Origin: Pseudomonas lini
Lineage (GTDB): Bacteria; Pseudomonadota; Gammaproteobacteria; Pseudomonadales; Pseudomonadaceae
Assembly (NCBI RefSeq): GCF_964063345.1
Contig: NZ_OZ061318.1
Location: 5,952,001-6,016,000 of the forward strand
Reading direction: 5' to 3'
Length of the DNA stretch: 64,000 bases
Within the stretch, counting starts at the first letter, position 1. Each line of letters starts with the position of its first letter. The notes beneath the pieces were generated by a model that was given only the letters and a program-made list of their open reading frames with translations, was not told the DNA's origin and ran no database searches. The position numbers and the translations under genes are program-made. Shown here in pieces: positions 32,891 to 51,101 of this stretch.

Positions 32891-32897
32891 AAACCCG

Positions 32898-33107
32898 TTA
32901 GATTTCAATGGGTCGGACGCCAGATACGAGTCTCGTTTCCCGCTCCAAGCATTAAAAAATGGATCTCTGAAAAGAGGTCCATTTTTTTTCGTCCAGAGAA
33001 AAGTCTTTCTTTGGCTTTTGCCGCGCGCCCCCCCCTTAAAACACTCAGATCCAGCCCCGATGGACACATTCTCCAGTACATCAATCCGGTGCCCGGCAGA
33101 TCGGTTT
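32898..33107 (+). repeat. Left copy of ~210-bp direct repeat bounding the island
   Basis: This segment matches 40224-40431 in the same orientation with scattered substitutions and a few small indels. Shared landmarks, in order, are TTAGATT, CAATGGGTCGGAC, the hairpin with T-run, AAAAGTCTTTCTTTGGC, CCAGTACATCAATCC and CGGCAGATCGG. Flanking bases on both sides are unrelated, so the ends are well defined. It encloses the LysE-to-Lrp cassette together with the right copy. Confidence 0.88.
32958..32989. terminator. Bidirectional rho-independent terminator in the left repeat
   Basis: An 11-bp stem (AATGGATCTCT at 32958-32968 with AGAGGTCCATT at 32973-32983, one G-T wobble) and GAAA loop are flanked by an A-run on the left and a T-run on the right. 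It can therefore stop transcription from either side. Confidence 0.75.
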
Positions 33108-33365
33108 CGTCTCTGAAGCATTGGCCGGTGCTGGTCTTCGGATCAGCATCCGCCAGCCACTTCAAGTGTCCATCGGACGGACTTCCAGTGCCGGATAGGT
33201 ATCGAGAGTATCCGGTGCCCAGGACACTGCTGCACCTTAGTAATGAAGGAAAAACAAGAATACTTCGTGCAAAATTATCGGAAAAGCCTGTGTGAAGATT
33301 AATAATTAATTCATAAAAAAGTGCACTTCCCCTAACCTTTCAGTATCAATTACGGAGGTGCATCT

Positions 33366-33998
33366 ATGTTGATTTTCGTTAAGTCAATGGTCATTGGGCT
33401 TTGTATTGCAGCCCCTGTGGGGCCCATTGGGCTGTTGTGCATACAGAGAAGCCTTATGCTGGGATGGAGAGCAGGGTTCGCGACAGGATTGGGGGCGGCT
33501 ACAGCTGATTCGATCTATGGATTTGTCGGTGCGCTGGGGATTACAGCTATCATAGCGACGCTCATTAGCCTCAAACCATGGTTGTGTATTTTCGGGGGAG
33601 TGTTCCTCGCGTACATTGGTTATCAAACAATAAGATCGAAAGGGAGCACAACAGCCTTGGCGGGTGAGCGAGCCAACATGTTCAACGCCTACTCGACTAC
33701 ACTGTTTTTGACACTGTCAAACCCAATGACTATCTTGTCGTTTATCGCGATATTTGCCGCCATGAGTGACGGCATGGTCAGTGATCAAAGCAGTCAGCAC
33801 TCAGTGCTGCCTATGGTGATCGGTATATTTCTAGGCTCGGCAGTCTGGTGGCTGGGGTTGAGCGGATTCTCCTCCATATTCAAGACCCGGATCTCCCAAT
33901 CAAAGCTTAGGTTGATCAACTATTTTTCCGGGTCAACCATAACCATCCTGGGTGCCTATCAGGTAGCCACTGGCGTTATACTCGCCACAGGTACCTGA
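33366..33998 (+). CDS. LysE-family amino-acid exporter
   Basis: This 210-residue inner-membrane protein has about six hydrophobic segments. The signature PVGPIGLLCIQRSLMLGWRAGFATGLGAATAD at residues 16-47 (seen as PVGPIGLLC...GLGAATAD) is typical of the LysE/RhtB superfamily, as is LSNPMTILSFIAIFA near residue 117. GGAGGT lies 7 bases before the ATG. It converges on the aminotransferase gene, 82 bp away. Within this island it is the obvious candidate to export an amino acid made or modified by the neighbouring enzymes. Confidence 0.92.
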   Translation: MLIFVKSMVIGLCIAAPVGPIGLLCIQRSLMLGWRAGFATGLGAATADSIYGFVGALGITAIIATLISLKPWLCIFGGVFLAYIGYQTIRSKGSTTALAGERANMFNAYSTTLFLTLSNPMTILSFIAIFAAMSDGMVSDQSSQHSVLPMVIGIFLGSAVWWLGLSGFSSIFKTRISQSKLRLINYFSGSTITILGAYQVATGVILATGT

Positions 33999-34080
33999 GC
34001 GGAAAGTCATACAAGGCTTGTTTCTCATTGACTGATCAACACGCCTTGGCATCAATCCCCAAGGCCCATGGGAGGATGCT

Positions 34081-35337
34081 TTACTGCATTCTAAATTCAA
34101 TGTACGCCCTGAGGCGGCCTATCGCTTGTTGGATTTCTGATTCTGTCGCATTACTAAACGACAATCTGACCTGAGTAACAGCCTCATTCGTCAGTGAAAA
34201 CAAGGAAGTGGGAAATACAATAACCTTGAAATTCCTGGCGCACTCGCACATTTCAGAATATTCAAAGGTGAAAGGCAACTGTAGATTGATGAAAAAACCA
34301 CCTGTCGGATGGTTCCAGGTGACAGTTCTTCGAGAATTGGTCTTGAACGGAAATTCACGTTCAAGGCATTCAATCATGCAGTTTCTTTTTTTCGTGTAAG
34401 ACAACACTCTTGGTTGGTTCAGGTTTTTTAAAGAGTAATTATTCTCTATCAACAAACCTCCGACAACCGCTTGACACAGTGCAGGTGTATTGACCGTGAT
34501 CAAGCTTTTGGCTTTGCATAATCTACTGCTAAAGGACATCACCCCGGCGCCCTCCGGAGCGACTAGATAGCCCATACGCAATCCCGGAAAAATCGACTTT
34601 GCAAAAGAGCCAAGAAGGAACACTCGACTACTGTCGATCGACTTCATCGAAGGGATTTTATCTCCCTCGTACCTGAAGTAGCTGTAGGCATTATCCTCCA
34701 GGATTAAAAAGTCAAATTCATTGGCCAAGGAGAGCATAGCCTTCCTGTCTTCATAGGAAAGGCTGTCAGCAGTAGGGTTACTAAAATCTGAAATCGCGTA
34801 CAGCGCTTTTATCTTTTCCCCCCTGGACTCCAGCTCCTTAGCTACCTTGCGCAGGGCAGAGGGATCGAGGAAGGTGTCCATGGGAACGGGTACAATTTTT
34901 ATTCTTAATAATTTCGCAATACCGGTTATCCCGGAAAACACAGGGTCGGGCACTAATAAAACACCGCCTCCTTCAAAAATGGCTAACAGTGTCAAGGTGG
35001 CAGCTTCTTGAAACCCCATACACACAACAATACTGTCAGGGTTGAAAATTTTTATCCCTTCATCCACCTGCAAGTATTCGGCGATTATCTCATTGATAAT
35101 CCCGGCGGTTTTTCCATATTGGCAAAGGAGTGTCGCAAGTGAATGTTTCGTATCGGCGATGTATCGTGCATAGCTGGCCAGCCCCTTATCGATGAGGGCG
35201 TGGTCGCATTGCTCATCATCAGGTCGACCGGAAGCCAGAGAAATAGCCTCTGGATTTTCATTGGAAATGGAATTTAGAAGATGGATAACGTTCAGAGTAG
35301 GGTCTTCGAATATCGTTTTTTCGAATGCAATGGACAA
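34081..35337 (-). CDS. Fold-type I PLP aminotransferase (2-aminoadipate/MocR-like domain)
   Basis: This aminotransferase of about 418 residues has the PLP-Lys in LLGSFAKSIFPGLRMGY (Lys247), the Asn in SDFSNPTADS (Asn187) and Asp215 in ILEDNAYSY. It resembles the aminotransferase domain of MocR proteins or LysN-type 2-aminoadipate aminotransferases, but has no DNA-binding domain. I propose a TTG start at 35337: GGAGAAG lies six bases before it, and a transcription terminator (35352-35385) lies further upstream, which an ATG start near 35400 would have to include. It moves an amino group on a substrate related to the lyase gene upstream. Confidence 0.85.
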   Translation of the reverse strand: MSIAFEKTIFEDPTLNVIHLLNSISNENPEAISLASGRPDDEQCDHALIDKGLASYARYIADTKHSLATLLCQYGKTAGIINEIIAEYLQVDEGIKIFNPDSIVVCMGFQEAATLTLLAIFEGGGVLLVPDPVFSGITGIAKLLRIKIVPVPMDTFLDPSALRKVAKELESRGEKIKALYAISDFSNPTADSLSYEDRKAMLSLANEFDFLILEDNAYSYFRYEGDKIPSMKSIDSSRVFLLGSFAKSIFPGLRMGYLVAPEGAGVMSFSSRLCKAKSLITVNTPALCQAVVGGLLIENNYSLKNLNQPRVLSYTKKRNCMIECLEREFPFKTNSRRTVTWNHPTGGFFINLQLPFTFEYSEMCECARNFKVIVFPTSLFSLTNEAVTQVRLSFSNATESEIQQAIGRLRAYIEFRMQ

Positions 35338-35351
35338 TTTCGCTTCTCCAT

Positions 35352-35385
35352 AAAAAAAGCAACGAGCCGTTGAAAGCTCGTTGCT
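35352..35385 (-). terminator. Rho-independent terminator/attenuator between lyase and aminotransferase genes
   Basis: On the minus strand AGCAACGAGC and GCTCGTTGCT form a perfect 10-bp stem with an 8-base loop followed by seven T residues. It starts 15 bp after the stop of the lyase gene and ends just before the aminotransferase ribosome binding site. It should lower aminotransferase expression unless read through. Confidence 0.85.
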
Positions 35386-35400
35386 CATGATTAACATCAA

Positions 35401-36546
35401 CTACGCAGGTTTAAGTGCATGTTCTCGATTCGCCATGTTTTCCATGGCTTCGAATGCTTGAAGCAGATCCTCTTTAAGATCCTCAAGGGCTTCTAAACCA
35501 AAACATAATCTAACCAAACCCTTTTCAATCCCCATGTCCGCTTTTTCCTGCTCAGTCATTGAGGCATGGCTCCCACTAAAGGGTTGAGCAACCATCGACG
35601 TGACACAGGCCATTCCCGTGCCCGTTCCAAACCATTTGAGGGCGCTGGTGAAGATTTTGTAAAAGGGAACCAGATCGGGCCGAATATCAACAAACACAAT
35701 GCCACCATATCCGGTCAATTGTTTGCCATCGACTCGCGGATAATAAACATGCTCAATAAAGGGCAGTTGCCGCAGGTAGTTGAGCATGCTGGAGGTAGTG
35801 TTACTGTGTTTCTCCATCCGTAGGTTAAACGTCTGCATGCTTCTGCGAAGCAGCCATGCGCTATAAGGGGCTAATATTGAGCCTGAATAAAAACGACCTT
35901 CGAGCAGGCGCTTATAAATCATTTCACTGTTGATAAGCACCAAGCCGCCCATGACATCGCTATGCCCGGAGAAATACTTCGTTGCACTGTACAGAGAAAT
36001 GTCGGCGCCAAAGTTTAGAGGTTTTTGAAAGATCGGAGTGGCCCACGTGTTATCAACGACTACCAGCGCCTGTGGGTTGTTTTGCTTAACCGCCCTGCTG
36101 ACCGCATGAATATCAATATCTTTCAGGAAGGGATTGGTCGGCGTTTCGAAAATGACCATATCCACATTCGATGGCAACGCTTCCAACCCACTTTCTGTGG
36201 TGAGATCCAGAATCGTCAGTTGCGCACCGATACGTGCAGCATATCGCTGAAACAGTTTATAAGAACAGCCATAGATGTATTTGTTGATCACCAGCGACCC
36301 ACCCGGTTTCAGCAGCTCCAAAACCATGTAGATGGCACTCATTCCGGTGCTGTAGGCCAAGGCGTATTCGCTGCCTTCCAGGGAAGCGACAACCTGTTCC
36401 AGCTCAGTCACGTTGGGATTGGCTTTTCTCGAGTAGAAGAACGCCGAGTCAGCGCTAAAAGCGCTGCACTGATAAATAGGCGTCACAGATGGATGGGCCT
36501 CTCGGTCATCTACCTTGATATGGAGTATTTCAGTAGACACATTCAT
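35401..36546 (-). CDS. Methionine gamma-lyase/cystathionine-lyase-like PLP enzyme
   Basis: This 381-residue enzyme belongs to the Cys/Met-metabolism PLP family. The PLP-binding Lys190 is in YSATKYFSGHSDVMGG and Asp165 in VVDNTWATP. The active-site loop reads YGCS at residues 92-95. The Cys94 position corresponds to the Cys of methionine gamma-lyases, where cystathionine synthases and lyases mostly have Gly. The substrate may therefore be methionine- or homocysteine-like, or an unusual gamma-substituted amino acid. It overlaps the radical SAM gene by 4 bp (translational coupling). An Lrp-type regulator lies in the same island, as with the known mdeR-mdeA pair of P. putida. A cytosolic tetramer is expected. 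Confidence 0.87.
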   Translation of the reverse strand: MNVSTEILHIKVDDREAHPSVTPIYQCSAFSADSAFFYSRKANPNVTELEQVVASLEGSEYALAYSTGMSAIYMVLELLKPGGSLVINKYIYGCSYKLFQRYAARIGAQLTILDLTTESGLEALPSNVDMVIFETPTNPFLKDIDIHAVSRAVKQNNPQALVVVDNTWATPIFQKPLNFGADISLYSATKYFSGHSDVMGGLVLINSEMIYKRLLEGRFYSGSILAPYSAWLLRRSMQTFNLRMEKHSNTTSSMLNYLRQLPFIEHVYYPRVDGKQLTGYGGIVFVDIRPDLVPFYKIFTSALKWFGTGTGMACVTSMVAQPFSGSHASMTEQEKADMGIEKGLVRLCFGLEALEDLKEDLLQAFEAMENMANREHALKPA

Positions 36547-38027
36547 GACTTGTTAACCAGTTTGATAATCTGCTCATACATGTTCTGCTTGCCTTCATAA
36601 CCAATTGTCGGCGTAATGTCATTTTGCGAAATACCAATCTCTTCAATCGACTCGGTTGGGAAGTGAGCCCTGTCGAATACTTCATGAAGATTTGAGTTCA
36701 CCCCCTTGGGAAGCCAGACCTCCGGGCCTGATTCATCAATTCGCGCCTTGGCGACAATGAATCGATAGCTTTCATACGGCCGCAATGTCAGGGATTTCCA
36801 ATCACTGTTAAGCCCGTCGGTATAATTGCGCCGCAGGTAGACGGTCTGTTCAAAGCCTTCAGTATTCAGCACTTGGGCATGCAGCGATACGATATCCCCA
36901 TGCCACTCGAACTTCCGCTTCTCGTAAGCGGTCAACGCATCCTCTTGCAGTTCAACAGGAATGTTCGCTTTGTGTTCGCCAAGTAACTTGAAATGTGCAT
37001 CGTGCCCACACTGAGTACAGCAACCGTTGCTATCCAGTCCGATGATGTCAGCATTCAAACCGTAGCGGGTAACGAGTAGAGCGTTACAGTTATTGCAACT
37101 GGTATTGGTGCCCTCGACATCATTCACGTTACCCAGATAAACATGCTCAACCCCCATGCTCCGAGCGATGTCTCGAGCCTTCAGGAGTCTGTCCACGGGG
37201 GTCCGGATGCTATTACTCATTTTATAATCGGGGTGAAACCTCACAAAGTGGAGCGGTACATTCGGGCCCAGTTCATCCAATACCCACTGGCTAATCTTCC
37301 TGGCGGTATCCTCATCGTCACTGATGTCGGTCACCATCAAAGTGCTGACTTCAACATATTTACCCGCATCGTATACTTTCTTGATGCCAGCCAGAACGGG
37401 CTCTACCCAGCCTGTTGTGACTTTTCGGTAGTATTCAGGGGAAATGGATTTTAGCGAAATGGAAAATATATCAATGACCGGCAATAGTTCATCAATGGCT
37501 TCTTCACTGATAAAAAATGCAGATTTATATAAGTTGATCAACCCCGCTTCCTTTGCCAGCTTTGCCGTGTCGAGGATGAACTCATGCCAGACAACAGGAT
37601 CGTTATAAGTCCAGGAGATGACGCGTATACCATGCTTTAGTGCAGTTTCCACCACCTGTTCAGGGGTATAGTAGTACACGTCTTTGTCTGTCACATATTT
37701 GGCCTGGGAGGTCTTCCAGTTGTGACAGTAGCCGCAGTTAAGCATGCAGCCGATATTGCCTAAGGAAAGGATTCGCTCTCCGGGAGCAAAATGGAATACC
37801 GCCTCGGTTTCGATCGTCTCTTCGGTACTGTGAACGCCTTTACCATAATTCAATGTAACTAACCGACCCCCTCTGTTTCCGCGTACCTTGCAAAAACCTA
37901 CCTTACCTTCCTGGATGACACAGTTTCGAGGGGAAAGATGACACTTTACACTACCGCCAGGAAGTATTTCTTCCAACTTTGCGGGCATGCTTTCCAAGGT
38001 CCAGTTTTTATTTTTTGTATTTTCCAT
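36543..38027 (-). CDS. Radical SAM enzyme (AmmeMemoRadiSam/PflA-like)
   Basis: This 494-residue protein has the radical SAM cluster motif C94-MLN-C98-GY-C101 after an N-terminal domain that starts CHLSPRNCVIQEGKVGFCKVR, of which CHLSPRNC and GFCKVRGNRGG are recognisable (residues 29-54). This is the layout of the AmmeMemoRadiSam-system radical SAM proteins. Further on are Cys pairs (CNNC near 325 and CCTQCGH near 350), which could bind a second Fe-S cluster or zinc. A C-terminal extension of about 110 residues has no recognised domain. GAGGAG precedes the ATG. AMMECR1 and Memo partner genes are not present here. The reaction is unknown but should involve a radical step on a substrate shared with the PLP enzymes. 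Confidence 0.87.
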   Translation of the reverse strand: MENTKNKNWTLESMPAKLEEILPGGSVKCHLSPRNCVIQEGKVGFCKVRGNRGGRLVTLNYGKGVHSTEETIETEAVFHFAPGERILSLGNIGCMLNCGYCHNWKTSQAKYVTDKDVYYYTPEQVVETALKHGIRVISWTYNDPVVWHEFILDTAKLAKEAGLINLYKSAFFISEEAIDELLPVIDIFSISLKSISPEYYRKVTTGWVEPVLAGIKKVYDAGKYVEVSTLMVTDISDDEDTARKISQWVLDELGPNVPLHFVRFHPDYKMSNSIRTPVDRLLKARDIARSMGVEHVYLGNVNDVEGTNTSCNNCNALLVTRYGLNADIIGLDSNGCCTQCGHDAHFKLLGEHKANIPVELQEDALTAYEKRKFEWHGDIVSLHAQVLNTEGFEQTVYLRRNYTDGLNSDWKSLTLRPYESYRFIVAKARIDESGPEVWLPKGVNSNLHEVFDRAHFPTESIEEIGISQNDITPTIGYEGKQNMYEQIIKLVNKS

Positions 38028-38126
38028 TACTCACTCCTCATCTCGGAAGTTACTGTCAACATCATCGGTTAAAATAGTCGAGGCAAAATAATCCCACAGC
38101 CACGGTGGCCGCAATCCCTCTCGTCG

Positions 38127-38846
38127 TTATGGGTAGGCAGAAGAAGCGCTGGTTAATCCATAATTCTTAAGTGAAAAGCGCCTGGCATTTATATTCATGA
38201 ATGGCTGTATTAGAGGGCCTATGACCAACAAAAATGCAATCGTTCCCATACCGAACGGCCCACCTAAAAGCCACCCGGTCGAAAAGATTCCAACTTCAAT
38301 GATCATTTTAGCCTTGGTGAATGACCACGCCCATTTGGAAACCATGGTAAGCACCACAAGGTCCATGATTCTGATACCAATACCGCTCATGATGATCAGT
38401 GCGGATGAATAAGCACACAAGATCAGTCCCATCGCCAATATCGTGTACTCATCCACTCTGACAATCAAATACTCTCCAAGCCCCAGTACGGACCAGAGGT
38501 CTATTAGCAGACCGGTAAGTGTAGTTGTAATAAAGGGACTTATCGGAGGGTACTTCTTGTTCCAGAGCATCCACCACAGCAGAAAGAATATAGCAACGAT
38601 GCCCGAACAAGCACCCATTCCGAGCATGAGTATTTTATTGATTGAAATGATCAGGACATCTAAAGGATCAGTTCCCAGTCGACTGACTATGAAAAACTTG
38701 GCGCCCACCGAGAACAGGGTGACGCCAGCCAGATACATGAAAACCTGATCCATCTTGAAGTTGCGAAAACCTAGGACTTCCGTTCCAATATACTTGGTGA
38801 ATGATGGGCAGGACTTTTGTGCACACTTTATTTTTTCATCTTCCAT
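38127..38846 (-). CDS. YczE/YyaS/YitT-family membrane protein
   Basis: This 239-residue membrane protein has about six hydrophobic segments (from residue 35 to 215). The segment VGAKFFIVSRLGTDPLDVLIISI is like the YczE family signature G-x-x-L-(G/R)-x-D-P. The N-terminal 30 residues carry two Cys and are hydrophilic. It is the first gene of the minus-strand operon, 99 bp before the radical SAM gene, and is divergent from the Lrp gene. YczE proteins have been linked to antibiotic production in Bacillus. Here it may help transport or protection; the function is unproven. Confidence 0.8.
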   Translation of the reverse strand: MEDEKIKCAQKSCPSFTKYIGTEVLGFRNFKMDQVFMYLAGVTLFSVGAKFFIVSRLGTDPLDVLIISINKILMLGMGACSGIVAIFFLLWWMLWNKKYPPISPFITTTLTGLLIDLWSVLGLGEYLIVRVDEYTILAMGLILCAYSSALIIMSGIGIRIMDLVVLTMVSKWAWSFTKAKMIIEVGIFSTGWLLGGPFGMGTIAFLLVIGPLIQPFMNINARRFSLKNYGLTSASSAYP

Positions 38847-38985
38847 ACGAACACCATCCCTGAAGGAAATTTTTTATTATGCGGTGCGTAACGCTAAAGA
38901 TTAGGGCTATTGATTTCCCGGATTCTTTTTAGGCTTTGTCGGGCTGTAAATAGACTAGCACCGCGCTTTATTTTGGTGCATTATT

Positions 38986-39017
38986 TTTTAATGAAAAACA
39001 CATGCTTTTCATTAAAA
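38986..39017. promoter_or_regulatory. Perfect 12-bp inverted repeat upstream of the Lrp gene
   Basis: Arms 38986-38997 (TTTTAATGAAAA) and 39006-39017 (TTTTCATTAAAA) are exact complements with an 8-base spacer. They lie 28-59 bp upstream of the Lrp ATG, in the region between it and the divergent yczE-like gene. This is a likely binding site for the regulator, controlling both directions. Confidence 0.75.
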
Positions 39018-39044
39018 TTTATACTTTTTACTGGGGAAACGTAC

Positions 39045-39476
39045 ATGGATCGTATAGACACAAAAATCCTGGGAAAGGTGCAGGACTGTGGTCGCATTTC
39101 CATCACAGAGCTGTCCAGGCACGCGGGTCTTTCTATTCCAGCCACCACTGATCGGCTGCGAAAACTCGAAGACTCCGGGGTCATCAAGGGCTATAGCGCT
39201 CAGTTAGATCCAACCAAGCTAGGGTTTGGCATATCTGCTGTCGTCGGCATCACCACCCTCAAGCCGGCGAAATCCAAATTGATAGCGACGCTCAACGACA
39301 TACCCGAAGTCGTTGAGTGTCTACACATCACGGGTAACGACTCCTACTTGATCAGGATCTATGCCAAGTCAATGGCCGATATCGAGAATGTCATTGCGAG
39401 GATCAACGCGTACGGTGAAACACGTACAAGCATTGTTTTGTCAGTCCCTATCGAGAGAAGAACGCTTGCCCCTTGA
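39045..39476 (+). CDS. Lrp/AsnC-family transcriptional regulator
   Basis: This 143-residue regulator has an N-terminal winged helix-turn-helix (MDRIDTKILGKVQ... SIPATTDRLRKLEDSGVI) and a C-terminal RAM/AsnC ligand domain (LGFGISAVVGI... ECLHITGNDSYLIRI). Length is normal. I chose ATG 39045 (GGGGAAAC upstream); the frame is open further upstream but without family sequence. It is divergent from the yczE/radical SAM/lyase operon. Lrp-type proteins sense amino acids, so it probably induces the cassette, including the LysE exporter, in response to a substrate or product. Confidence 0.92.
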   Translation: MDRIDTKILGKVQDCGRISITELSRHAGLSIPATTDRLRKLEDSGVIKGYSAQLDPTKLGFGISAVVGITTLKPAKSKLIATLNDIPEVVECLHITGNDSYLIRIYAKSMADIENVIARINAYGETRTSIVLSVPIERRTLAP

Positions 39477-39717: not shown

Positions 39718-40146
39718 ATGGCACTCTCGGATACCACCGTTCGGCAGGCCAGAATTACCGGCAACGATTATTCCCTCGGCGACACGGATGGACGGGCGCT
39801 CAAGGTGATGGCCCGTGGACGCCGCGATGAGGCGCGTGCCTTGGTTGCTCAAGGCATCAATCCTTATGAGCATCGTAAACAGCAGCGTTGCTCGTTCGTA
39901 ATGCGGCAGAGCACGCACTCGCAGATATTGAGAGTCTTCAAAAAAGACGTCCTGCCAACGCTCGGTCGGTGGTCCATCTACGACATCAATCGCCACGACT
40001 TGATGCACCTACTGAGCGGAATCGAACAACGCAGGGCGTTAACGACAGCGGAACAATGTCGGACCTGGTTCAAGCAATCGTTCCGATACGTCCTGGGCGT
40101 TTTTCAGCGTGATCAGTTGTTACCCAGGTACGAACTCAAGCCCTGA
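39718..40146 (+). pseudogene. Integrase relic 1 (P4-type tyrosine integrase)
   Basis: This is an open frame of 142 codons with the start MALSDTTVRQARITGND, the typical N-terminal arm-binding domain of P4-like integrases in Pseudomonas. Several segments expected in full proteins are missing (after about residue 30 and after about residue 52). It then resumes at THSQILRVFKKDVLPTLG and ends ...LLPRYELKP, before the catalytic R-H-R-Y domain. It therefore cannot recombine DNA. It lies just inside the right direct repeat. Confidence 0.82.
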
Positions 40147-40223
40147 CCGACACAATATTTGACCGGCTTGCCGACCTCACGGGACGCTGATGATTTCGCC
40201 ACTGAGGGGATATTTAAAAACCT

Positions 40224-40431
40224 TTAGATTTTCAATGGGTCGGACACCAGATGCGAGTCTCGTTTCCCGCTCCAGGCATTAAAAAAATGGATCTCTGAAA
40301 AGAGGTCCATTTTTTTTCGTCCAAAGAAAAGTCTTTCTTTGGCTTTTGCCGCGCAGCCCTGAAAACACTCAGGTATAGGCCCGGTGAGCACATTTTCCAG
40401 TACATCAATCCTGTGCTCGGCAGATCGGTTT
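40224..40431 (+). repeat. Right copy of ~210-bp direct repeat bounding the island
   Basis: This matches 32898-33107 in the same orientation, including the bidirectional terminator. The copies start 7,326 bp apart. Their similarity breaks sharply at both ends. Position right after integrase relic 1 and before integrase relic 2 suggests that the repeat travels with integrase ends. Confidence 0.88.
40286..40318. terminator. Bidirectional rho-independent terminator in the right repeat
   Basis: The same hairpin as in the left repeat: AATGGATCTCT at 40286-40296, GAAA loop, AGAGGTCCATT at 40301-40311, with A-run before and T-run after. Confidence 0.75.
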
Positions 40432-40499
40432 TCTCGTGGCGCCAGTCTCACCGCAAACCGTACAAATCTCCTCTATTCATACGGGGCGGAGATTGTGCG

Positions 40500-40745
40500 A
40501 TGGTCTCACCAAGACTACGGCCCTACACGCCAAACCTGAAGCTAAGGACTACACCCTCGCTGACTACTATTTCTCTCGGTACCTATTCTGAAATTAGCTT
40601 ACGAGATGCTCGCGTTCTGCATGATGTTGCAAGGGCATTGGTCGCTAGGGGCATCGGTCCGCGTGTCCATTGGCAGCTGGAGCGTAATGCTGGGCGCGAG
40701 GCCTCGGAAAAAGATCAAGCAGGGCTCACTGCATCAAATTCCTAG
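40500..40745 (+). pseudogene. Integrase relic 2 (N-terminal fragment, frameshifted)
   Basis: From ATG 40500 one frame with a one-base loss after the start codon encodes TTALHAKPEAKDYTLAD, the N-terminus of Pseudomonas P4-like integrases. A second frame then continues SLGTYSEISLRDARVL...ARALVARGIGPRVH, the next part of the same domain. About 30 residues between them are deleted. The fragment ends at about codon 80 of the original. No catalytic domain follows, since the SCP2 gene begins on the other strand. Confidence 0.75.
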
Positions 40746-41140
40746 CGCGTCGAAGGGTAAAATGCTGATGTTTTTTTGCTAGGCTGCAAGTATTCAGTTA
40801 ATCCCTGGAACCACATCACTTCAACAAAGTCACCGCTGATAACCAAGTCCTCTTTACGCAATCCTGTCAGAAATGCATCTTTACTATCTTTGGCAGACAG
40901 AATGGCGAAACCCTTCGCTGCATCCCTGAACGACAGGGTGAATTTTGGCTTTTCAGTCAAACCTGCAGAGGATTTTATCTTGCCGTTTTTAAGGGTGAAA
41001 TAGCGACCCACTCCGTCATGCGTTTGGATTTGAAAGACCAGCTCCTTGCCTTTAACGTATTTTGCGCAGTCAGGACTTTTTTTGATCGTTCTCTGTATTA
41101 GCTTGGTCAAAACCCATAACAAAAATTTAAACTTCAGCAT
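40742..41140 (-). CDS. SCP2 sterol-carrier-fold protein
   Basis: This protein of about 132 residues has the SCP2 pattern: KYVKGKELVFQIQTHDG, then the YFTLKNGKIKSS hairpin, PKFTLSFRDAAKGFAILS and GDLVISGDF-like (DLVISGDFVEVMWF). Such proteins bind hydrophobic ligands such as sterols, acyl-CoAs or alkyl chains. I chose ATG 41140; a TTG at 41158 is an alternative. It lies 22 bp after the hydrolase gene on the same strand, last gene of the operon with the hydrolase, OYE-type reductase and GMC oxidase. A second SCP2-like domain is in the HxlR regulator of this region. Confidence 0.78.
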   Translation of the reverse strand: MLKFKFLLWVLTKLIQRTIKKSPDCAKYVKGKELVFQIQTHDGVGRYFTLKNGKIKSSAGLTEKPKFTLSFRDAAKGFAILSAKDSKDAFLTGLRKEDLVISGDFVEVMWFQGLTEYLQPSKKTSAFYPSTR

Positions 41141-41162
41141 GGTAAGCGTGCTCCGCAAGCTA

Positions 41163-42008
41163 TTACTCGTTGAGAAACTGGATGGCGTGTTTCAGGAAAC
41201 GCTCAGGACATTGGAACTGAGCGCCGTGACCTGCATCTGGATACAGGAATAGCTGGGCGTTCGGGATGTTCTGAGCCATGTACCAGGAATTGACCGTTGG
41301 AACCATAACGTCATTCATGCCGTTCAGGATGAACGTCGGTTGTTTGATCTCGCGCAGATGATTGAAAGGATCGTCCGGGTCTAGCTTTGGCAAATAATGC
41401 ATATTGGCTTCGATCTGGGCCTGTATCACTTCCGGAGAGCTGGGTGGATCCTGGTCGACACGCTGATGACGACGCGCCCAGAAATCACGTCCGGCCTGCT
41501 GCGCCGCCGTGGATCGACCGAAGAACAGAAACAGAAAGTCTTCCAGAGTCGGAACGGGGCGCGGCGCAGCTTCCAGCACTCCTGGGTCTGAATCCGGATT
41601 ACCGCCACGAGGGCCAGTGCCGAGCAGCATGAGCTTGCGCACGAGGTCGGGATGGCGTCGTGTCAGATCCTGGGCTTGAAAACCACCGAGTGAGAAACCT
41701 AAAACATCGACCTTGGATAGGCCTAGCGTGCGAATCACCGCAGCCGCATCGTCGGCCATATGTTCGATCCGGGTACGCGGTTTTCCGGAAGAAGAGGCAA
41801 CCCCGCGACCGTTGTAGAGGATGACCTCGCGCCCTGCAGCAAGGCCATCCGTCATGAGCGGATCCCAATGATCCATACCGCCGCGGAAATGTTGAAGGAA
41901 GAACAGAGGGGGCTGGCCTGTCGTATTGTTGCCCCAGCGGCGATAGGCAAATTTATCCCCATCGACTTCCACGAAGCGAGTGGGGGCGGTGAAATGAGTG
42001 TCGGTCAT
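41163..42008 (-). CDS. Alpha/beta hydrolase
   Basis: This 281-residue alpha/beta hydrolase is similar in layout to the one at 60039. The nucleophile elbow is GFSLGGFQAQD (near residue 105), the acid lies in NDVMVPT and the His in DAGHGAQFQ. Oxyanion residues lie near the HFRGG motif. It is cytosolic. It may cleave an ester or lactone, or ring-opened intermediate, formed by the two oxidoreductases upstream. It is 64 bp from the OYE-type gene on the same strand. Confidence 0.9.
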   Translation of the reverse strand: MTDTHFTAPTRFVEVDGDKFAYRRWGNNTTGQPPLFFLQHFRGGMDHWDPLMTDGLAAGREVILYNGRGVASSSGKPRTRIEHMADDAAAVIRTLGLSKVDVLGFSLGGFQAQDLTRRHPDLVRKLMLLGTGPRGGNPDSDPGVLEAAPRPVPTLEDFLFLFFGRSTAAQQAGRDFWARRHQRVDQDPPSSPEVIQAQIEANMHYLPKLDPDDPFNHLREIKQPTFILNGMNDVMVPTVNSWYMAQNIPNAQLFLYPDAGHGAQFQCPERFLKHAIQFLNE

Positions 42009-42072
42009 GTTGGAGTCTTCCAGGTGGCTATTGTGGCGATCGATGCGATTGGATCATTGGCGAGCCTCGGGC

Positions 42073-43338
42073 TTATGCCCGTGCGCGCATGCGACGCGTG
42101 CGGAACGTGCCCCAGCCGCTTTTCATCACTGATTTTGAAAGTGCCCACAGCCCACTTTCGTTGGGGCGAGGATCACCTCCATTGGCGATTCGTTTGAGCT
42201 GCAGCGTGTACCAGAAGATTTCCATGACGCCCATCTGATCAATTTGCTTGATGCCTGTGGTGATCGGCCGTACACGTTGCGAACTGTCCTGTCCTTGCAG
42301 CAGGGCCGCCGGGGCATCGGGATCAATGGCCAACAACCGCGCGAGGCCAATGACGTCGAGCGCTCCGGAGCGCAGTGCAGCGTTCATGGCAGCGGCACTG
42401 CGAAAACCACCAGTGACCATCAAAGGCACCTTGATCGAGGCGCGCACCTTTTCAGCAAACTCAAGAAAGTAAGCCTCACGCGCTACGGTGGATGCTTTTT
42501 TAGTCTCCTGGAGACCGCCGCTCATGGCTGGAGCCTCGTAGGTGCCCCCCGAAATCTCAATCAGGTCGATACCTGCTTCGGCGAGCGCATGAATCGTCGC
42601 CATCGATTCCTCTTCAGTGAAACCTCCGCGTTGGAAATCAGCCGAGTTGAGCTTGATGCCGACGGGAAATTCGGCACCGACCTGGCGACGGATCTCGGTA
42701 TAAACGGCCAGCACGAAACGACGACGTTTTTCCGGGCTGCCACCCCATTCATCCGTACGCCGATTGTGGTGCGGCGACAGGAACTGGTTGATCAGATAGC
42801 CATGTGCGCCATGGATTTGCACGCCGCTGAAGCCGGCTTTCTTGCAGATGGCCGCACTGCGTCCAAAGCGCTGGATGATTTCTTCTATCTCGGCTGTAGT
42901 GGCTTCGCGTGGGGTCTCGAAGAGCGCGGCCATGTCCTCGCGAAAGGGGACGGCCGATGGCGCGAGGTTGCTGTCATTCAAGCCTTTGGTCGACTGCTTT
43001 CCGGGGTGATTGAGCTGCACCCAGATCGCCGCTCCCTGCTCAGTTGCCGCACGGGCCCACTGGCGTAGCACAGGCAAGTCCGCTTCATCCTCGATCACCA
43101 CGTTGCCTGGTTCACCGAGTGCACGCCGGTCGATCATCACATTTCCGGTGATGAGCAAACCAATGCCCGACGCGGACCAGCGCCGATACAACTCGACCAG
43201 TTTCAACGTCGGGTGGTTGTTGTAGGTGCCCAGCGTTTCGCTCATGGATGCCTTGGCGAGGCGATTGCGAAAAGCGCTGCCGTTCGGGAGTTGCAAGGGC
43301 TGGTTCAGCAGATTTTCTTCAGGCGAGGAGGCGGTCAT
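42073..43338 (-). CDS. NADH:flavin oxidoreductase (old yellow enzyme family)
   Basis: This 421-residue FMN enzyme has the OYE TIM-barrel with the active-site IHGAHGYLINQFLSPHHNRRTD near residue 178, of which HGAHGYLINQFLSP is diagnostic. WVQLNHPGKQ near 105 holds the substrate-binding His region, and a GGFRSAAAM FMN-phosphate site is near 305. It is a single-domain form without the 4Fe-4S/NADH extension. It should reduce activated C=C bonds of an enone. It is the second gene of the GMC operon, 24 bp after the GMC gene stop. Confidence 0.9.
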   Translation of the reverse strand: MTASSPEENLLNQPLQLPNGSAFRNRLAKASMSETLGTYNNHPTLKLVELYRRWSASGIGLLITGNVMIDRRALGEPGNVVIEDEADLPVLRQWARAATEQGAAIWVQLNHPGKQSTKGLNDSNLAPSAVPFREDMAALFETPREATTAEIEEIIQRFGRSAAICKKAGFSGVQIHGAHGYLINQFLSPHHNRRTDEWGGSPEKRRRFVLAVYTEIRRQVGAEFPVGIKLNSADFQRGGFTEEESMATIHALAEAGIDLIEISGGTYEAPAMSGGLQETKKASTVAREAYFLEFAEKVRASIKVPLMVTGGFRSAAAMNAALRSGALDVIGLARLLAIDPDAPAALLQGQDSSQRVRPITTGIKQIDQMGVMEIFWYTLQLKRIANGGDPRPNESGLWALSKSVMKSGWGTFRTRRMRARA

Positions 43339-43362
43339 GGTGAGTTCTCTATAAGGGCTGAT

Positions 43363-45006
43363 TCAAGATTGAAGGGTGTGCAGCGGGATGGCGTTCGATA
43401 CCCGCGTGTTTTTCACTGGGATGTACGACATGGCGTGCTCGGTCAGCGCGGTGATCGTCAGGCTTGGATTAACCCCGAGATTGGCGCTGAGCATCGAGCC
43501 GTCGCAAACCAGCAAGTTCTGATAGCCGAAGACCCGGTTCTGTACGTCCATCACGCCGCGCTCCGGCGAGTCCGCCATCGCACAGCCGCCCATGCAATGC
43601 GCCGTGGTCGGGATGTTGAATAAAATCTCGGAGAGAAAAGTGGTAGGTATGCCACCGAGCGCCTTAGCGCCCTTTTCGGCAAACGCATTCGCCTCTGGAA
43701 TGAAGGTGGGGATGGGGCCGCCTTCGCTTGCGAGCTGTTTTACGAACGGCCAAAACCAGCGACGCCTGAGCCGCATGTCGATAGACGCGTCTGCTGTCTG
43801 CATCACCAGCAATAACATCGTCTGACGGGCGAAACCGATGGGGTTGTGCACGAGCAATGCTTGCAGTGGATGTTTGAGCAGCGTCCATAGCCAGGTCAAT
43901 ATTCGCATCCACCCCGGGCGCCCGCCGCACAGCAAGGTCATCATCAAGCCTATCGCATCCGAGCCTTCCGGGTAGCGCACGACTCCGATATGAGTGTGCT
44001 CATCGAGATAGATGCTGCCGCCCCCCGCCAGTCCCGGCGACATGCTCTTGTCCGCTGCCGGAAAGCGTATGCCGATAAGGGATTCGGCATTAGTGCGCAC
44101 ACGTTTTCCGAGGTCGTCGCTGATGCGCGGCAATGACCTGTTCTGTTTGAGCCGGAACAACAATTCCATGGTGCCCAACGACGAGGCGGCGAAGATCACG
44201 CCGCGGCAGCGAAAACTGCGGGGCTGTTTGGCGAACCAGGCGGTCGAGCACTCAGTGAAGACTTCATAGCCATCACTGCCGTCTTCTTTGCCGTTGAGCG
44301 GTCGCACGTCCACCACCTTGGTCTCGGCAAAAACCTGGGCGCCACGCTTTTCTGCGAGATAAAGGTAATTCTTGTCGAGTGTGTTCTTGGCGTTGTGCTT
44401 GCAACCCATCATGCAGCCGCCGCAACCGGTACAGGTCCCGCGCGCCGGGCCTTCACCATTGAAGTAGGGATCCGGGTAGGTCTGGCCGCCTTCTTCACCA
44501 TCGGGAGCAAAGAAGGTTCCTACGCGCGGGAGGTGAAACGTGTGGCCCACACCTTGCAAATCCGCCATTTCCTTGAGGCGTAGATCAGCCTCTCCCATGA
44601 TCTTGCTTTCTGTCACACCCAGCATCTTCTCCGCCGTGGCGTAGTACTGCGGCATGATTCGTTTCCAGTCGGCCAGGCCAGCCCAGGAGCCTTCGCTCCA
44701 TACACTATCGTGAGGTGTCAGCAGGGCGTTGGCATAGGTGATGGATCCTCCACCGACGGCGTTGCCGCTCACGATCATCACGTGACGGAACAGACGCATG
44801 TTATAGAAGCCGAACATCTTCAGCCCAGGTCGCCACATCCAGTGCCGCGTGTCCCAGTTGGACTTGGGGAAGTCTTCGGCCGTCCAGCGTCGGCCCATCT
44901 CCATTACGCCAACGCAATAGCCTTTTTCGGTTAACCGGAAGGCGGACACGCTGCCACCGAATCCGGAGCCGATAACGATGTAGTCGAAATCGAAAGATGG
45001 ATTCAT
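43363..45006 (-). CDS. GMC oxidoreductase (cholesterol-oxidase-like), paralogue 1
   Basis: This 547-residue flavoprotein begins with DYIVIGSGFGGSVSA (FAD motif). It has VGGGSITYANALL and the C-terminal NIPTTAHCMGG with the active-site His. An internal Cys motif C-x2-C-x2-C-x3-C (CTGCGGCMMGC, near residue 205) is followed by NTLDKNYLYLAEKRG, as in ChoD-like enzymes. I chose ATG 45006; a TTG at 45024 is less likely. It oxidises a bulky secondary or primary alcohol. The similar protein at 52624 has the same motif. It is the first gene of the operon, with a 19-bp palindrome about 140 bp upstream. Confidence 0.9.
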   Translation of the reverse strand: MNPSFDFDYIVIGSGFGGSVSAFRLTEKGYCVGVMEMGRRWTAEDFPKSNWDTRHWMWRPGLKMFGFYNMRLFRHVMIVSGNAVGGGSITYANALLTPHDSVWSEGSWAGLADWKRIMPQYYATAEKMLGVTESKIMGEADLRLKEMADLQGVGHTFHLPRVGTFFAPDGEEGGQTYPDPYFNGEGPARGTCTGCGGCMMGCKHNAKNTLDKNYLYLAEKRGAQVFAETKVVDVRPLNGKEDGSDGYEVFTECSTAWFAKQPRSFRCRGVIFAASSLGTMELLFRLKQNRSLPRISDDLGKRVRTNAESLIGIRFPAADKSMSPGLAGGGSIYLDEHTHIGVVRYPEGSDAIGLMMTLLCGGRPGWMRILTWLWTLLKHPLQALLVHNPIGFARQTMLLLVMQTADASIDMRLRRRWFWPFVKQLASEGGPIPTFIPEANAFAEKGAKALGGIPTTFLSEILFNIPTTAHCMGGCAMADSPERGVMDVQNRVFGYQNLLVCDGSMLSANLGVNPSLTITALTEHAMSYIPVKNTRVSNAIPLHTLQS

Positions 45007-45145
45007 TGCGTGCTGCCCCGGCAAGCACTGCGTAGAGGCGTGAAAAAACTGGTCATGCCGGTCTCCTTATTTTTGTAATGGTGCTGCGGATGTTGGTTTT
45101 TGGAGTGGTCCTGTTAAATTACTATATCATTCGTATATTTCTATG

Positions 45146-45164
45146 GCTATACGAATCGTATAGC
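45146..45164. promoter_or_regulatory. 19-bp palindrome upstream of the GMC operon
   Basis: GCTATACGAATCGTATAGC is a perfect palindrome around a central A. An additional ATTCGTATA/TATACGAAT pair overlaps it. It is in the gap between the divergently positioned FadL 3' end and the GMC start at 45006. A similar sequence occurs upstream of the HxlR gene pair (48035-48053), which suggests an HxlR operator. Confidence 0.7.
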
Positions 45165-45246
45165 TTTGATTTGGGGGGGATGCGGCGACTCTCTCCGAAA
45201 TGAACATGAGCTTTGGCTCCGATCAGGGAGCCAGGCTGATGGCAAG

Positions 45247-46617
45247 TTAAAAACGGTAGGTTATCTGTGTACCTATAATGTGCGCGCTGTTGTCGTATTT
45301 TGCGTTGTAGCTGGGCTGTACACCGGTTGTATTTGCTTGGCTGACAGAGGTGGTTGATTCCCATAGATAGCCATAAGCCAAATCGATGGTCAGGTCAGTG
45401 TTGGGGGAGAAACCTGCACCCAACGTCACCGCTTTTCGGTTGCCCACCGGGAGCCGGACGTTTCGATCGGCGTTGCGGGCAGGTGATGGATCGTAGGCGA
45501 AGCCGCTGCGCAACAGCCATTTCGGGGAAAGCTGGTAAGAGGCCCCAACAGCCATCGACCAGGTGTCATGTAATTTAAAGTCATCTCCGAAGCTGTTAAA
45601 ACCCAGTTGCTGGCCCAGCGGCGGTACACCACTATTAACGGCTTCGATTCTCTGAACGCGGCTCCATCGAGTCCAGGTCGCGCCCAGGTAGCCAGTCCAG
45701 CGCTCATCAAAGTGATGGGTAAACGATGTGTCCAGCGACTCTGGCAAGGTGATGTCTATTTTATTGCTGTATTTGCCGTCGAGACCGAAAGCACTTGGCG
45801 AGTTGCTCACCTCCGTATGACCGTTGACGTGAAAATCAAGTTTTGAATGATAAGTGATGCCCCATGTGGTGGAGTCGTTCAGGTCGATCATCAGGCCGAA
45901 ATTATAGCCAATGGCGTTATCGTTACCCTTGATAGTGATCTGCGTGTCGGTGCCCCCGTTGAGCAGCCCTGTGGCCAAATAGGTTTGCATATTATTTTCG
46001 ATACGGTTCAATGTCAGCCCGCCTCCGACAGAGACATGATCATTGATGCGATAAGCAACGGCGGAGTTCAGGGTTTTAACTTGAACCTTGCTATAGGAAC
46101 CATGGTAGCGTCCCTGGAACGAACTTTCGTAATCGTTCACAAGGCCATAGAGAGCGTATACGCCCAAGCCGAAAGTGAAGCGTTCGTCAATCGGTATGGA
46201 TAAATAGCCAAAAGGGATTGTCGTCAGGGGTACGGAATCTCCGTTGTGGGTGCCTGGCGCATCGCTATGAGAGTTTTTAATATCACTATCAACCTTGATC
46301 AAGGCGAACCCTCCGCTCACTTCCCTGCGCTTTATCTTGCTCAGGCCGGCTGGGTTTCCATAGACAGTACTCGCATCCAGAGCCGCGGACGAGCGCCCGG
46401 CATAAGCGGTTCCGGCGCTACTTACACTTTGCTCGTTAACAGCTAAACCATTAGCTAAAGATACAGTTGCCTGCCCACAGATAATCAACAACATAGTTGT
46501 TATGAACAACGCTCTGCTTGACTTGAGTAGCAGGGTGGACCCTGTCTCAAGATGACGTTTCAAACGCAGCACTGATCTCTGGGAAGGGCGAAGTGCAGAA
46601 AGATGTTGATGGTTCAT
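45247..46617 (-). CDS. OmpP1/FadL/TodX-family outer-membrane transporter
   Basis: This hydrophobic-compound channel has about 456 residues from ATG 46617. A long N-terminal region (about 65 residues) leads to a signal peptide ending SLA-NGLAVNEQS, followed by the FadL hatch motif NPAGLSKIK and beta-barrel sequence to a terminal Phe (TQITYRF). The unusual N-terminus could mean a later start. Another ATG at 46707 would add a run of 13 Asn codons. It imports hydrophobic substrates such as fatty acids, aromatic hydrocarbons or terpenoids. It lies between the GMC operon and the HxlR gene and probably belongs to the same pathway. Confidence 0.85.
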   Translation of the reverse strand: MNHQHLSALRPSQRSVLRLKRHLETGSTLLLKSSRALFITTMLLIICGQATVSLANGLAVNEQSVSSAGTAYAGRSSAALDASTVYGNPAGLSKIKRREVSGGFALIKVDSDIKNSHSDAPGTHNGDSVPLTTIPFGYLSIPIDERFTFGLGVYALYGLVNDYESSFQGRYHGSYSKVQVKTLNSAVAYRINDHVSVGGGLTLNRIENNMQTYLATGLLNGGTDTQITIKGNDNAIGYNFGLMIDLNDSTTWGITYHSKLDFHVNGHTEVSNSPSAFGLDGKYSNKIDITLPESLDTSFTHHFDERWTGYLGATWTRWSRVQRIEAVNSGVPPLGQQLGFNSFGDDFKLHDTWSMAVGASYQLSPKWLLRSGFAYDPSPARNADRNVRLPVGNRKAVTLGAGFSPNTDLTIDLAYGYLWESTTSVSQANTTGVQPSYNAKYDNSAHIIGTQITYRF

Positions 46618-46628
46618 CTGGCGGTACC

Positions 46629-46670
<42 letters not shown>

Positions 46671-47018
46671 CGGGTGAATAGAAATCGTGGGCGGCGGTAT
46701 ACATCAACAGTGCCGGCTGGGCTGGAGTAGGAGAGTGTTAATTGGGTCTTGCAGATATGTAGTTATTTTTTAGTTGCAAAGCCCTCTCTGGAATATCACA
46801 GGCTCAGGCGATTGCCATATTTATATATGTGAGGTTGCAAGTTGCGTTGATGGCAAGAAGAGCCTTGCGTGGCATTGCTTTGCAGGCAAGTACCCTTGGG
46901 CCAGACGCGGGTACAAGGCTGCAAGCAGTTCGCTGATAAAGAGGCAATGACGGATGCCGGGCGGGCAAGTCCCCCTCGATCCGTATGACACGAGGGAAGG
47001 GGGAAGAGGCCGGTAATC
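46671..47018. other. Promoter region of the FadL gene
   Basis: About 350 bp between the microsatellite and the 3' end of the HxlR gene. It is expected to hold the FadL promoter; no palindrome like those at 45146 and 48035 was seen. No supported gene. Confidence 0.45.
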
Positions 47019-47968: not shown

Positions 47969-48010
47969 GTATTGCTCACTGAATGGATTGAGTAATTTTT
48001 ATTGGTTTCA

Positions 48011-48053
48011 CTATACCGTTCGTTTAGTAGTGATGCTATATAAAAAGTATAGC
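48011..48053. promoter_or_regulatory. Two operator-like 19-bp sites upstream of the HxlR operon
   Basis: GCTATATAAAAAGTATAGC at 48035-48053 has the same ends as the palindrome at 45146. A second weaker site, ACTATACCGTTCGTTTAGT, is at 48010-48028. Both are just upstream of the small gene and HxlR (minus strand), which fits autoregulation. Confidence 0.6.
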
Positions 48054-48115
48054 TTTGCGATAGGTGCTGACGAGAGGTGTGTTGTCATCTGTTGCTCGAG
48101 TCGTAAACCTATCTG

Positions 48116-48964: not shown

Positions 48965-49034
48965 TTCAGAGGTTCCCTTCAGGAGCTGAGCATTCAGGTT
49001 TTGTGTACAGGTCAGTGCATATTGCGAGAGTAAT

Positions 49035-51053: not shown

Positions 51054-51101
51054 GCCTACTGATTCGAGCGTTTCCGTCATTTTTCAGAGAGAACAACAAT
51101 A

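Follow-up and report, generated by a model that had tools for sequence, protein, structure and literature searches.

A six-gene block of Pseudomonas lini with a radical SAM/PLP enzyme pair and a putative role in making and exporting an amino acid

Genes and features of the block

The DNA analysed here, referred to as the window, is a 64-kb stretch of the Pseudomonas lini chromosome. It contains a compact block of six genes that encode a LysE-type exporter, an aminotransferase-like protein, a Cys/Met-family PLP enzyme, a radical SAM enzyme, a YczE-like membrane protein and an Lrp/AsnC-type regulator. An earlier note on this DNA, made without database searches, had described such a six-gene block, and every gene lies where that note had placed it. 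The genes and the elements around them are as follows.

32891..33107, plus strand: left copy of an imperfect direct repeat
33235..33249, plus strand: possible regulator site CCTTAGTAATGAAGG, some 115 bp upstream of lysE (15 loci)
33366..33998, plus strand: LysE-family amino acid exporter (PF01810, 95.2 bits, cut-off 25.6)
34081..35337 (longer frame to 35400), minus strand: fold-type I aminotransferase-like PLP enzyme (PF00155, 89.8 bits)
35357..35386, minus strand: terminator-like hairpin and T run between the PLP and aminotransferase genes (conserved, 15 loci)
35401..36546, minus strand: Cys/Met-metabolism-family PLP enzyme, partner of the radical SAM enzyme, with the motif GTGMACVTSM (PF01053, 312.5 bits)
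36543..38027, minus strand: radical SAM enzyme, 494 aa (PF04055 and TIGR04337)
38127..38846, minus strand: YczE-like membrane protein (NF052291, 75.6 bits, under the cut-off of 205)
38988..39015, no strand assigned: 28-bp inverted repeat TTAATGAAAA-N8-TTTTCATTAA, candidate Lrp-type operator (15-locus alignment)
39045..39476, plus strand: Lrp/AsnC-family regulator, divergent from the operon (PF01037, 54.7 bits; PF13412, 50.1 bits)
39718..40146, plus strand: tyrosine-type phage integrase fragment, central domain (PF22022, 40.8 bits, cut-off 27)
40217..40431, plus strand: right copy of the imperfect direct repeat
40413..40745, plus strand: second integrase fragment, arm-binding domain (PF13356, 29.3 bits, cut-off 27)

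The radical SAM gene shares 4 bp (36543-36546) with the PLP gene, as had been noticed before, and the identical overlap is present in 14 other Pseudomonas, two Paraburkholderia, one Magnetococcales and two Planctomycetota loci. ATG 39045, not TTG 38910, is the most probable start of the Lrp gene. For the aminotransferase gene the most probable start is TTG 35337, which is preceded by GGAG and follows the terminator-like hairpin, because most relatives align no earlier than residue 15-16 of the longer reading frame, a few doing so from 3 or 11.

The 28-bp inverted repeat lies in the gap that separates the operon from the Lrp gene and is likely the operator of the Lrp-type regulator. Its arms are conserved across 15 loci (17 of 20 columns invariant, compared with none of the eight spacer columns and 37 of the 170 columns in the remaining gap). 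The 64-kb window contains a single copy of it, as does each of 13 of the 14 other loci. The terminator-like hairpin can be seen by eye in 14 of the 15 loci, the window included, and is missing in L012. The count took in 12 distinct rows, leaving aside L012, L013 and also L002, whose sequence here is the same as the window's. In these rows 98.5% of the cells are paired and three pairs are changed on both sides, a result that two of 500 shuffles reached. The CCTTAGTAATGAAGG element was noticed in the aligned lysE upstream regions of the 15 loci. A strict pattern written for it post hoc matches nine of the 14 other loci and does not match the window itself, and its reading as a regulator site is suggestive only.

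Occurrence and horizontal acquisition

The radical SAM gene (E <= 1e-100) and the PLP-partner gene (E <= 1e-85) are found in the identical 17 of 398 Pseudomonas genomes, and the other 381 contain neither at these thresholds. In the 17 positive genomes the two genes are adjacent and the other four lie in the same order within the fetched flanks of 1.5 kb, in which LysE is visible solely by its end. A search of genome contigs revealed 14 other Pseudomonas loci, and all 14 have the six genes, lysE among them. The block is thus a co-inherited gene set and goes beyond a chance grouping. The earlier note had treated the genes as a unit and had proposed a synteny search as the check; the neighbourhood is indeed conserved, and the contrary outcome named there, scattered homologues that share no gene neighbourhood, did not arise.

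The block was acquired horizontally, since its base composition departs from that of its surroundings and it occupies different chromosomal sites in relatives. Its GC content is 46.9%, which bears out its description as AT-richer, as compared with 57.5 +/- 1.3% (minimum 54.8%) in 86 overlapping background windows of 6.1 kb, all outside 32.5-41.2 kb. The two copies of the flanking direct repeat are 88.6% identical over 219 aligned bases. The first integrase fragment also has a sub-threshold match to the arm domain (PF13356, 21.8 bits, cut-off 27). The cassette had been called mobile: horizontal acquisition stands, but mobility of the element itself is not supported, as integrase fragments and imperfect repeats are all that was seen beside the block and no intact mobility gene was found there.

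The radical SAM/PLP pair is also found outside Pseudomonas, in nine phyla, and in seven of these the two genes overlap or are less than 120 bp apart. A contig search found 120 relatives, of which 80 were kept for comparison. Both enzymes are present in 37 of the 80 loci, and in 33 of the 37 their genes share a strand and lie -60 to 120 bp apart; in the other 43 the PLP partner was not found in the clustered stretch, in some because the contig ends. L017, whose contig ends in a PLP-partner-like piece assigned to a different cluster, is outside the 37. These absences are lower bounds, since the clustering of neighbours covered about 8-9 kb, a number of contigs break off close to the gene and a home-made score was used to call frames in GC-rich DNA. 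The distances between the radical SAM proteins and between the PLP proteins are correlated (Mantel r 0.73, 0 of 9999 permutations) in a set of 22 of the 37 loci, which contains one Pseudomonas locus (13 were dropped) and excludes L021 and L042 as split or truncated. The PLP family has four matches among 398 genomes from the phylum, and the two outside Pseudomonas have the radical SAM gene directly upstream. When the lengths of the contigs with the 120 best radical SAM hits were set against those for 118 of the 120 best PLP hits (the other two gave no length), 19 lengths occurred in both sets.

The neighbours of the pair were scanned against Pfam or NCBIfam with one representative per cluster. 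A protein of one NRPS-like cluster lies nearby in seven of the 37 paired loci, as would be expected if the pair made an amino acid for use as a building block. The one of these seven that was scanned, from L040, contains an AMP-binding domain and a partial condensation domain. Contigs titled as Paraburkholderia symbionts (L014 and L016) carry the pair; we take these bacteria to be leaf-nodule symbionts with reduced genomes. Four Streptomyces loci (L026, L028, L029 and L031) have the order radical SAM, SPASM-like radical SAM, HemN-like radical SAM, LysE and YczE, with one extra gene between LysE and YczE in L026. There the exporter and the YczE-like gene accompany the radical enzyme, and this PLP partner was not found.

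The two enzymes and their accessory proteins

The radical SAM protein has the CxxxCxxC cysteines of its superfamily (C94, C98 and C101, invariant in 58 sequences), and PF04055 (69.4 bits) is the sole domain matched at E <= 0.001. It has a core like that of the pyruvate formate-lyase (PFL) activase, extra conserved cysteines and a C-terminal beta-sandwich, and its structure is modelled with a pLDDT of 91.2. It resembles the AmmeMemoRadiSam enzymes in passing the TIGR04337 cut-off (292.5 vs 220 bits), but differs from that system in the added beta-sandwich and in having a PLP partner in place of Memo and AMMECR1. Membership in the three-gene system is rejected, as neither Memo (PF01875) nor AMMECR1 (PF01871) is matched in the genome, while the control matched each of them in five of 14 genomes.

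The PLP partner belongs to PF01053, and its closest solved-structure neighbours in sequence are methionine and cystathionine gamma-lyases. The SLGxxES/TL pattern is a family feature of these lyases. In two aligned PDB chains of methionine gamma-lyase it takes the form SLGDTETL, whereas the partner has GTGMACVTSM. The GT[GAS]MA core occupies this position in 38 of 38 aligned partner rows; its motif pattern is present in 115 of the 120 best database matches and fails in five, and the canonical pattern is present in none of the 120. The partner scores under the cut-off of each of the best 25 of 45 matched NCBIfam models (top score 266.4 vs 594 bits; methionine gamma-lyase TIGR01328, 255.2 vs 549.7 bits). 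By these measures it is a family of its own or a distinct subfamily and no methionine gamma-lyase, and the gamma-lyase label of the earlier note is not supported in that sense. Like the lyases, it retains the stretches with the PLP lysine, the active-site Tyr and Cys and the carboxylate Arg, which suggests that it should act on an alpha-amino acid.

The aminotransferase-like protein matches solely Aminotran_1_2 and Asp_aminotransf in Pfam. Its best NCBIfam scores are to MocR-like models, under the cut-off, and a role as a MocR-type regulator is rejected because no N-terminal winged-helix or other DNA-binding domain was matched in Pfam. The exporter passes the cut-off for PF01810, and the regulator passes those for both the helix-turn-helix (PF13412) and the RAM ligand-binding domain (PF01037); with PF01053 and PF00155 in the PLP enzymes, the amino-acid type exporter, sensor and enzymes previously read from the sequence are supported at the level of domains. 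Judged by its score, the membrane protein is a distant relative of YczE, so that the label YczE-like, which had already been used, is right and YczE would be wrong.

A proposed amino acid pathway and its alternatives

We are slightly inclined to believe that the cassette is a self-contained unit that makes, regulates and exports a free, non-proteinogenic amino acid. The radical SAM enzyme, from a standalone branch of the AmmeMemoRadiSam type, would make or modify an amino-acid-like intermediate. Its PLP partner may then subject that intermediate to gamma-type elimination, replacement or cyclisation, and the aminotransferase-like enzyme may adjust the product or recycle a keto acid. LysE would export the amino acid, possibly aided in transport by the YczE-like protein, and the divergent Lrp-type regulator would sense the product and control the operon via the inverted repeat. 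The substrate is perhaps a four-carbon methionine, homoserine or SAM skeleton, as used by the PLP family. The radical step, the free and exported state of the product and all roles in regulation and transport are what we infer from the genes.

A broader and more tentative proposal, which we hold to fall somewhat short of an even chance, is that the standalone AmmeMemo-type radical SAM enzymes make a novel sort of amino acid building block and underlie an undescribed class of natural-product pathways. It would extend to as many as nine phyla, with its own gamma-family PLP partner and a reaction new for both enzyme families. Actinobacteria and others would use different finishing enzymes, and the Pseudomonas cassette would be the compact form that releases the free amino acid as an exported antimetabolite or signal; the toxic analogue or signal suggested in the earlier note is likewise hypothetical. 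The earlier note knew of no described pathway with this gene set, and none was recognised in the literature covered, which consisted mostly of titles and abstracts, with most subscription journals and all preprints outside it, so that a description may exist elsewhere. Within that literature, five papers mention AmmeMemoRadiSam once each and another mentions AMMECR1, Memo and radical SAM together.

Relief from surplus amino acids is a common function of paired LysE and Lrp proteins, and it is conceivable, though unlikely, that the cassette serves to degrade or detoxify an amino acid, such as an analogue from plants or microbes, and to expel it. The PLP enzymes would break the compound down, the radical SAM enzyme would remove a refractory group, LysE would expel the excess and Lrp would sense it. 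The gamma-lyase-like nature of the PLP partner and the patchy distribution among Pseudomonas genomes agree with such a function, but the NRPS-like protein near seven of the 37 paired loci and the pair in Paraburkholderia symbiont contigs suit synthesis better than breakdown. It is quite improbable that the radical SAM enzyme acts as an activase or maturase and installs a radical or modification on a protein or peptide, with the PLP enzyme as its protein substrate or cofactor supplier. PFL-activating enzyme is its nearest solved fold and the sole PDB family with a sequence match, and the two genes are close partners, but the PLP partner was not found in the clustered stretch of 43 of 80 loci, some ending with the contig. 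Activation of a glycyl radical enzyme in particular is rejected, as the genome has no match to the glycyl radical domain (PF01228), for which the control matched in three of 14 genomes. Still more doubtful is a sulfur-metabolism cassette in which the PLP partner acts as a normal methionine or homocysteine gamma-lyase and gives off volatile thiols. The solved structures closest in sequence and the earlier annotation point to such an enzyme, but the scores (266 vs 594 bits at best) and the replaced motif contradict it.

If the make-and-export proposal is true, the six genes are a tractable entry to widespread, apparently undescribed radical SAM/PLP chemistry, and the built-in sensor and exporter should make the product findable in the culture medium. 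The misleading labels "AmmeMemoRadiSam system" and "gamma-lyase" on cassette genes would also be corrected. An ecological role is suggested by the way the cassette is distributed among Pseudomonas, sporadically and through horizontal transfer, and by the finding of the pair in contigs titled as Paraburkholderia symbionts.

There is a precedent for the proposed logic of the two enzymes. The radical SAM enzyme Orf29 and the PLP enzyme Orf30, homologous to Swb7 and Swb6, make norcoronamic acid (MeACC) from SAM (PMC7277169). Like the cassette, this module pairs a radical SAM with a PLP enzyme, in its case for a non-proteinogenic amino acid building block, and its genes adjoin NRPS genes. Orf29 is a cobalamin-dependent methyltransferase and Orf30 an ACC-synthase of the aminotransferase type, whereas the radical SAM enzyme of the cassette has no match to a B12-binding domain at E <= 0.001 and its partner is of the Cys/Met gamma family (PMC7277169). 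The conserved pairing would fit sequential action on SAM or a derived amino acid. The cassette also shares a YczE-type membrane protein and a protein of the aspartate aminotransferase fold with the MocR/YczR-YczE regulon; some YczE proteins are linked with PLP-type regulators, and a role in amino acid transport is proposed (PMC4944035). In contrast to that regulon, the aminotransferase-like protein of the cassette has no DNA-binding domain match and the regulator is of the Lrp type (PMC4944035).

The radical SAM/PLP pair and its six-gene block

The block at 33366..39476 contains genes for a LysE exporter (+), an aminotransferase-like protein (-), a PLP enzyme of the Cys/Met family, hereafter the PLP partner (-), a radical SAM enzyme (-), a YczE-like protein (-), and an Lrp/AsnC regulator (+). 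All six genes that the earlier note had listed are found at the positions and on the strands claimed, and the 4-bp overlap of the radical SAM gene with the PLP gene is there as described. The block is AT-richer, as had also been claimed. Its GC content is 46.9% vs 57.5 ± 1.3% outside, about 8 standard deviations below the surroundings (86 overlapping 6.1-kb windows, all outside the block). Two gene starts need correction: ATG 39045 for the Lrp-type gene, and about TTG 35337 for the aminotransferase.

The two central genes were searched separately in 398 Pseudomonas genomes drawn evenly across the genus, including the genome of the window. The radical SAM gene (E <= 1e-100) is found in 17 genomes and the PLP partner (E <= 1e-85) in the identical 17 and no others; the PLP-partner copy of G183 is reported to carry an in-frame stop. 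Gene order was checked at 16 radical SAM loci (excluding the locus of the window, which was read directly) and 17 PLP loci. The two genes have adjacent coordinates in all 17 genomes, and the YczE-like, Lrp, and aminotransferase genes keep their order around them; of LysE only the end is seen, where the retrieved sequence stops. A second collection has all six genes in 14/14 Pseudomonas loci other than the window. This co-occurrence and conserved order bear out the grouping of the six genes as a set.

The pair extends beyond Pseudomonas. In a phylum-wide sample (398 genomes) the PLP family has four matches, two of them outside Pseudomonas and both with the radical SAM gene directly upstream. 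Searching named genomes with the radical SAM enzyme gave 120 relatives; 80 loci were retained. The PLP partner accompanies 37 of the 80 (23 outside Pseudomonas), and many of the underlying records are metagenome bins. By tree labels, the paired loci span nine phyla: Pseudomonadota, Nitrospinota, Nitrospirota, Bdellovibrionota, Bacteroidota, Planctomycetota, Myxococcota, Cyanobacteriota, and Acidobacteriota. In 33 of the 37 loci, covering seven of the nine phyla, the genes share a strand and are separated by -60 to 120 bp; the cyanobacterial locus has a 0.6 kb gap and a split PLP frame, and the acidobacterial gap is 6.9 kb. Pairwise distances of the two proteins are correlated over 22 loci (Mantel r 0.73, 0/9999 permutations). 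In our reading the enzymes work together as a pair, and this pair ranges more widely than the Pseudomonas cassette.

The pair also occurs in records titled 'uncultured Paraburkholderia sp. isolate Vmac symbiont' (L014) and 'Candidatus Paraburkholderia schumanniana' (L016), which we take to be leaf-nodule symbionts.

The gap that separates the Lrp gene from the divergent YczE-like gene holds a conserved 28-bp inverted repeat, TTAATGAAAA-N8-TTTTCATTAA. Over 15 loci its arms are invariant at 17/20 positions, the spacer at 0/8, and the remaining gap at 37/170. The window and 13 of the 14 other loci each have a single copy; L010 has a degenerate one. A weaker, similar element lies upstream of lysE, and its strict pattern matches 9 of the 14 other loci and has no match in the window. 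Fourteen of the 15 loci keep a hairpin with a T run between the PLP and aminotransferase genes, and some of the changes in it compensate each other; expression of the aminotransferase is therefore probably lower or begins at a different start.

Flanks and probable horizontal acquisition of the block

The earlier note had called the cassette mobile. The flanks of the window (20.0-33.3 kb and 39.5-52.0 kb) have no alignment above 300 bases with the flanks of any of the 14 other loci. Nine of those loci have one upstream flank in common, Pseudomonas sp. GM50 (L002) and L022 have 3.2 kb in common on opposite sides, and the flanks of L010, L011, and L012 match no other locus. Each protein of the window copy is 98-100% identical to its GM50 counterpart; the flanks nevertheless differ. 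Imperfect direct repeats of ~217 bp and two integrase fragments lie beside the block, and no empty site was found. The non-matching flanks, near-identical GM50 copy, repeats, and integrase fragments support horizontal acquisition; they fall short of showing a working mobile element.

Two duplications involve sequence of the window:

40712-52305: right flank, repeated in inverted orientation elsewhere in this genome (G000:C1:6556500-6567852; L118:1-11353), 90-94% identity
45247-46707 (-), L118:5395-6864 (+): outer-membrane-protein-like frame (by eye) in the two copies
9303-10773 and 16368-17838: aldehyde dehydrogenase-type stretches (by eye), 89% identical over 1471 bp, 7 kb apart

The aldehyde dehydrogenase-type stretches are a local duplication. 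Near the start of the outer-membrane-protein-like frame is a run of AAC codons (13 in the window, 16 in the L118 copy), possibly slippage-prone or a mis-called start.

The PLP partner and proposed function

The PLP partner belongs to PF01053 (Pfam). Among the 25 best of 45 matched NCBIfam models it reaches no cut-off, and most of its scores are near half the required value. Compared with solved gamma-lyases, it retains the YGC stretch and the stretches that we take to hold the PLP lysine, the phosphate-site Tyr and Arg, and the carboxylate-binding Arg. The SLGDTETL of aligned PDB chains is replaced by GTGMACVTSM. The GT[GAS]MA core is present in 38/38 aligned PLP-partner rows and a fuller pattern in 115 of the 120 best database matches, none of which has the canonical gamma-lyase form. 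We read the protein as a gamma-family enzyme retuned for one unusual substrate.

As a local unit, the cassette would make, sense, and export a free amino acid, a general reading that we slightly favour. A four-carbon, methionine- or homoserine-related substrate is a doubtful detail, guessed from the PLP family. The closest precedent for such logic is norcoronamic acid biosynthesis, in which SAM is methylated by a radical SAM enzyme and the ring is closed by a PLP enzyme (PMC7277169); the enzymes of the cassette belong to other families. A Pfam scan matched no cobalamin domain in the cassette. No title or abstract in the literature searched, which lacks most subscription journals, was recognised as describing the cassette or pair. 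We regard the cassette as an apparently undescribed variant of radical SAM and PLP building-block modules; there is a fair chance that the chemistry itself is new.

Other contexts of the radical SAM enzyme

Neighbour families were clustered by sequence and one representative per cluster was scanned for domains. Downstream of the radical SAM gene, four Streptomyces loci have SPASM-like and HemN-like radical SAM, LysE, and YczE genes. Other actinobacteria have it beside varying sets of ferredoxin, cupin, class V aminotransferase, AurF-like, and LysE genes. In Nitrospinota the gene that precedes it encodes an AMP-binding domain plus a partial condensation domain, and in several Bacteroidota and Bdellovibrionota loci the pair adjoins an indolepyruvate oxidoreductase-like protein. 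Two more contexts are listed below.

Loci with LuxC/LuxE-type or HgcAB-like neighbours
LuxC/LuxE-type: L061, L062, L064, L066-L070, L072-L074, L076 (Budviciaceae, Morganellaceae, a Rhodocyclales, a Kofleriaceae, a Nitrospiria record)
HgcAB-like: L077:7099-18921, L071, L065, L053, L055, L027, L032

LuxE-, LuxC-, and LCAT-type genes accompany the radical SAM gene in 12 loci (Enterobacterales and three others), 11 of which have a penicillin-amidase-type gene; L076 has the PLP partner too. In seven loci the same radical SAM subfamily is clustered with an HgcAB-like fusion family, whose scanned representative, in L077, scores 333.7 vs a cut-off of 285 bits for NF043039. These clusters contain a SAM methyltransferase, and most also contain further radical SAM and ThiF- or DUF2817-type proteins; they may form a corrinoid-linked pathway.

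Across these varied neighbour sets the radical SAM enzyme is the constant, and some loci that lack the PLP partner still have the exporter and YczE-like genes after it. The pattern suggests an enzyme that makes or modifies an amino-acid-like unit for different finishing enzymes.

In Streptomyces, L044:15235-16752 encodes an RraA-like aldolase domain fused to a ferritin-like domain, adjoining radical SAM, cupin, and class V aminotransferase genes. In an actinobacterial bin, L025:1529-3027 has LysE and a divergent Lrp/AsnC-like gene (by eye) beside the radical SAM gene, an arrangement that resembles the Pseudomonas cassette.
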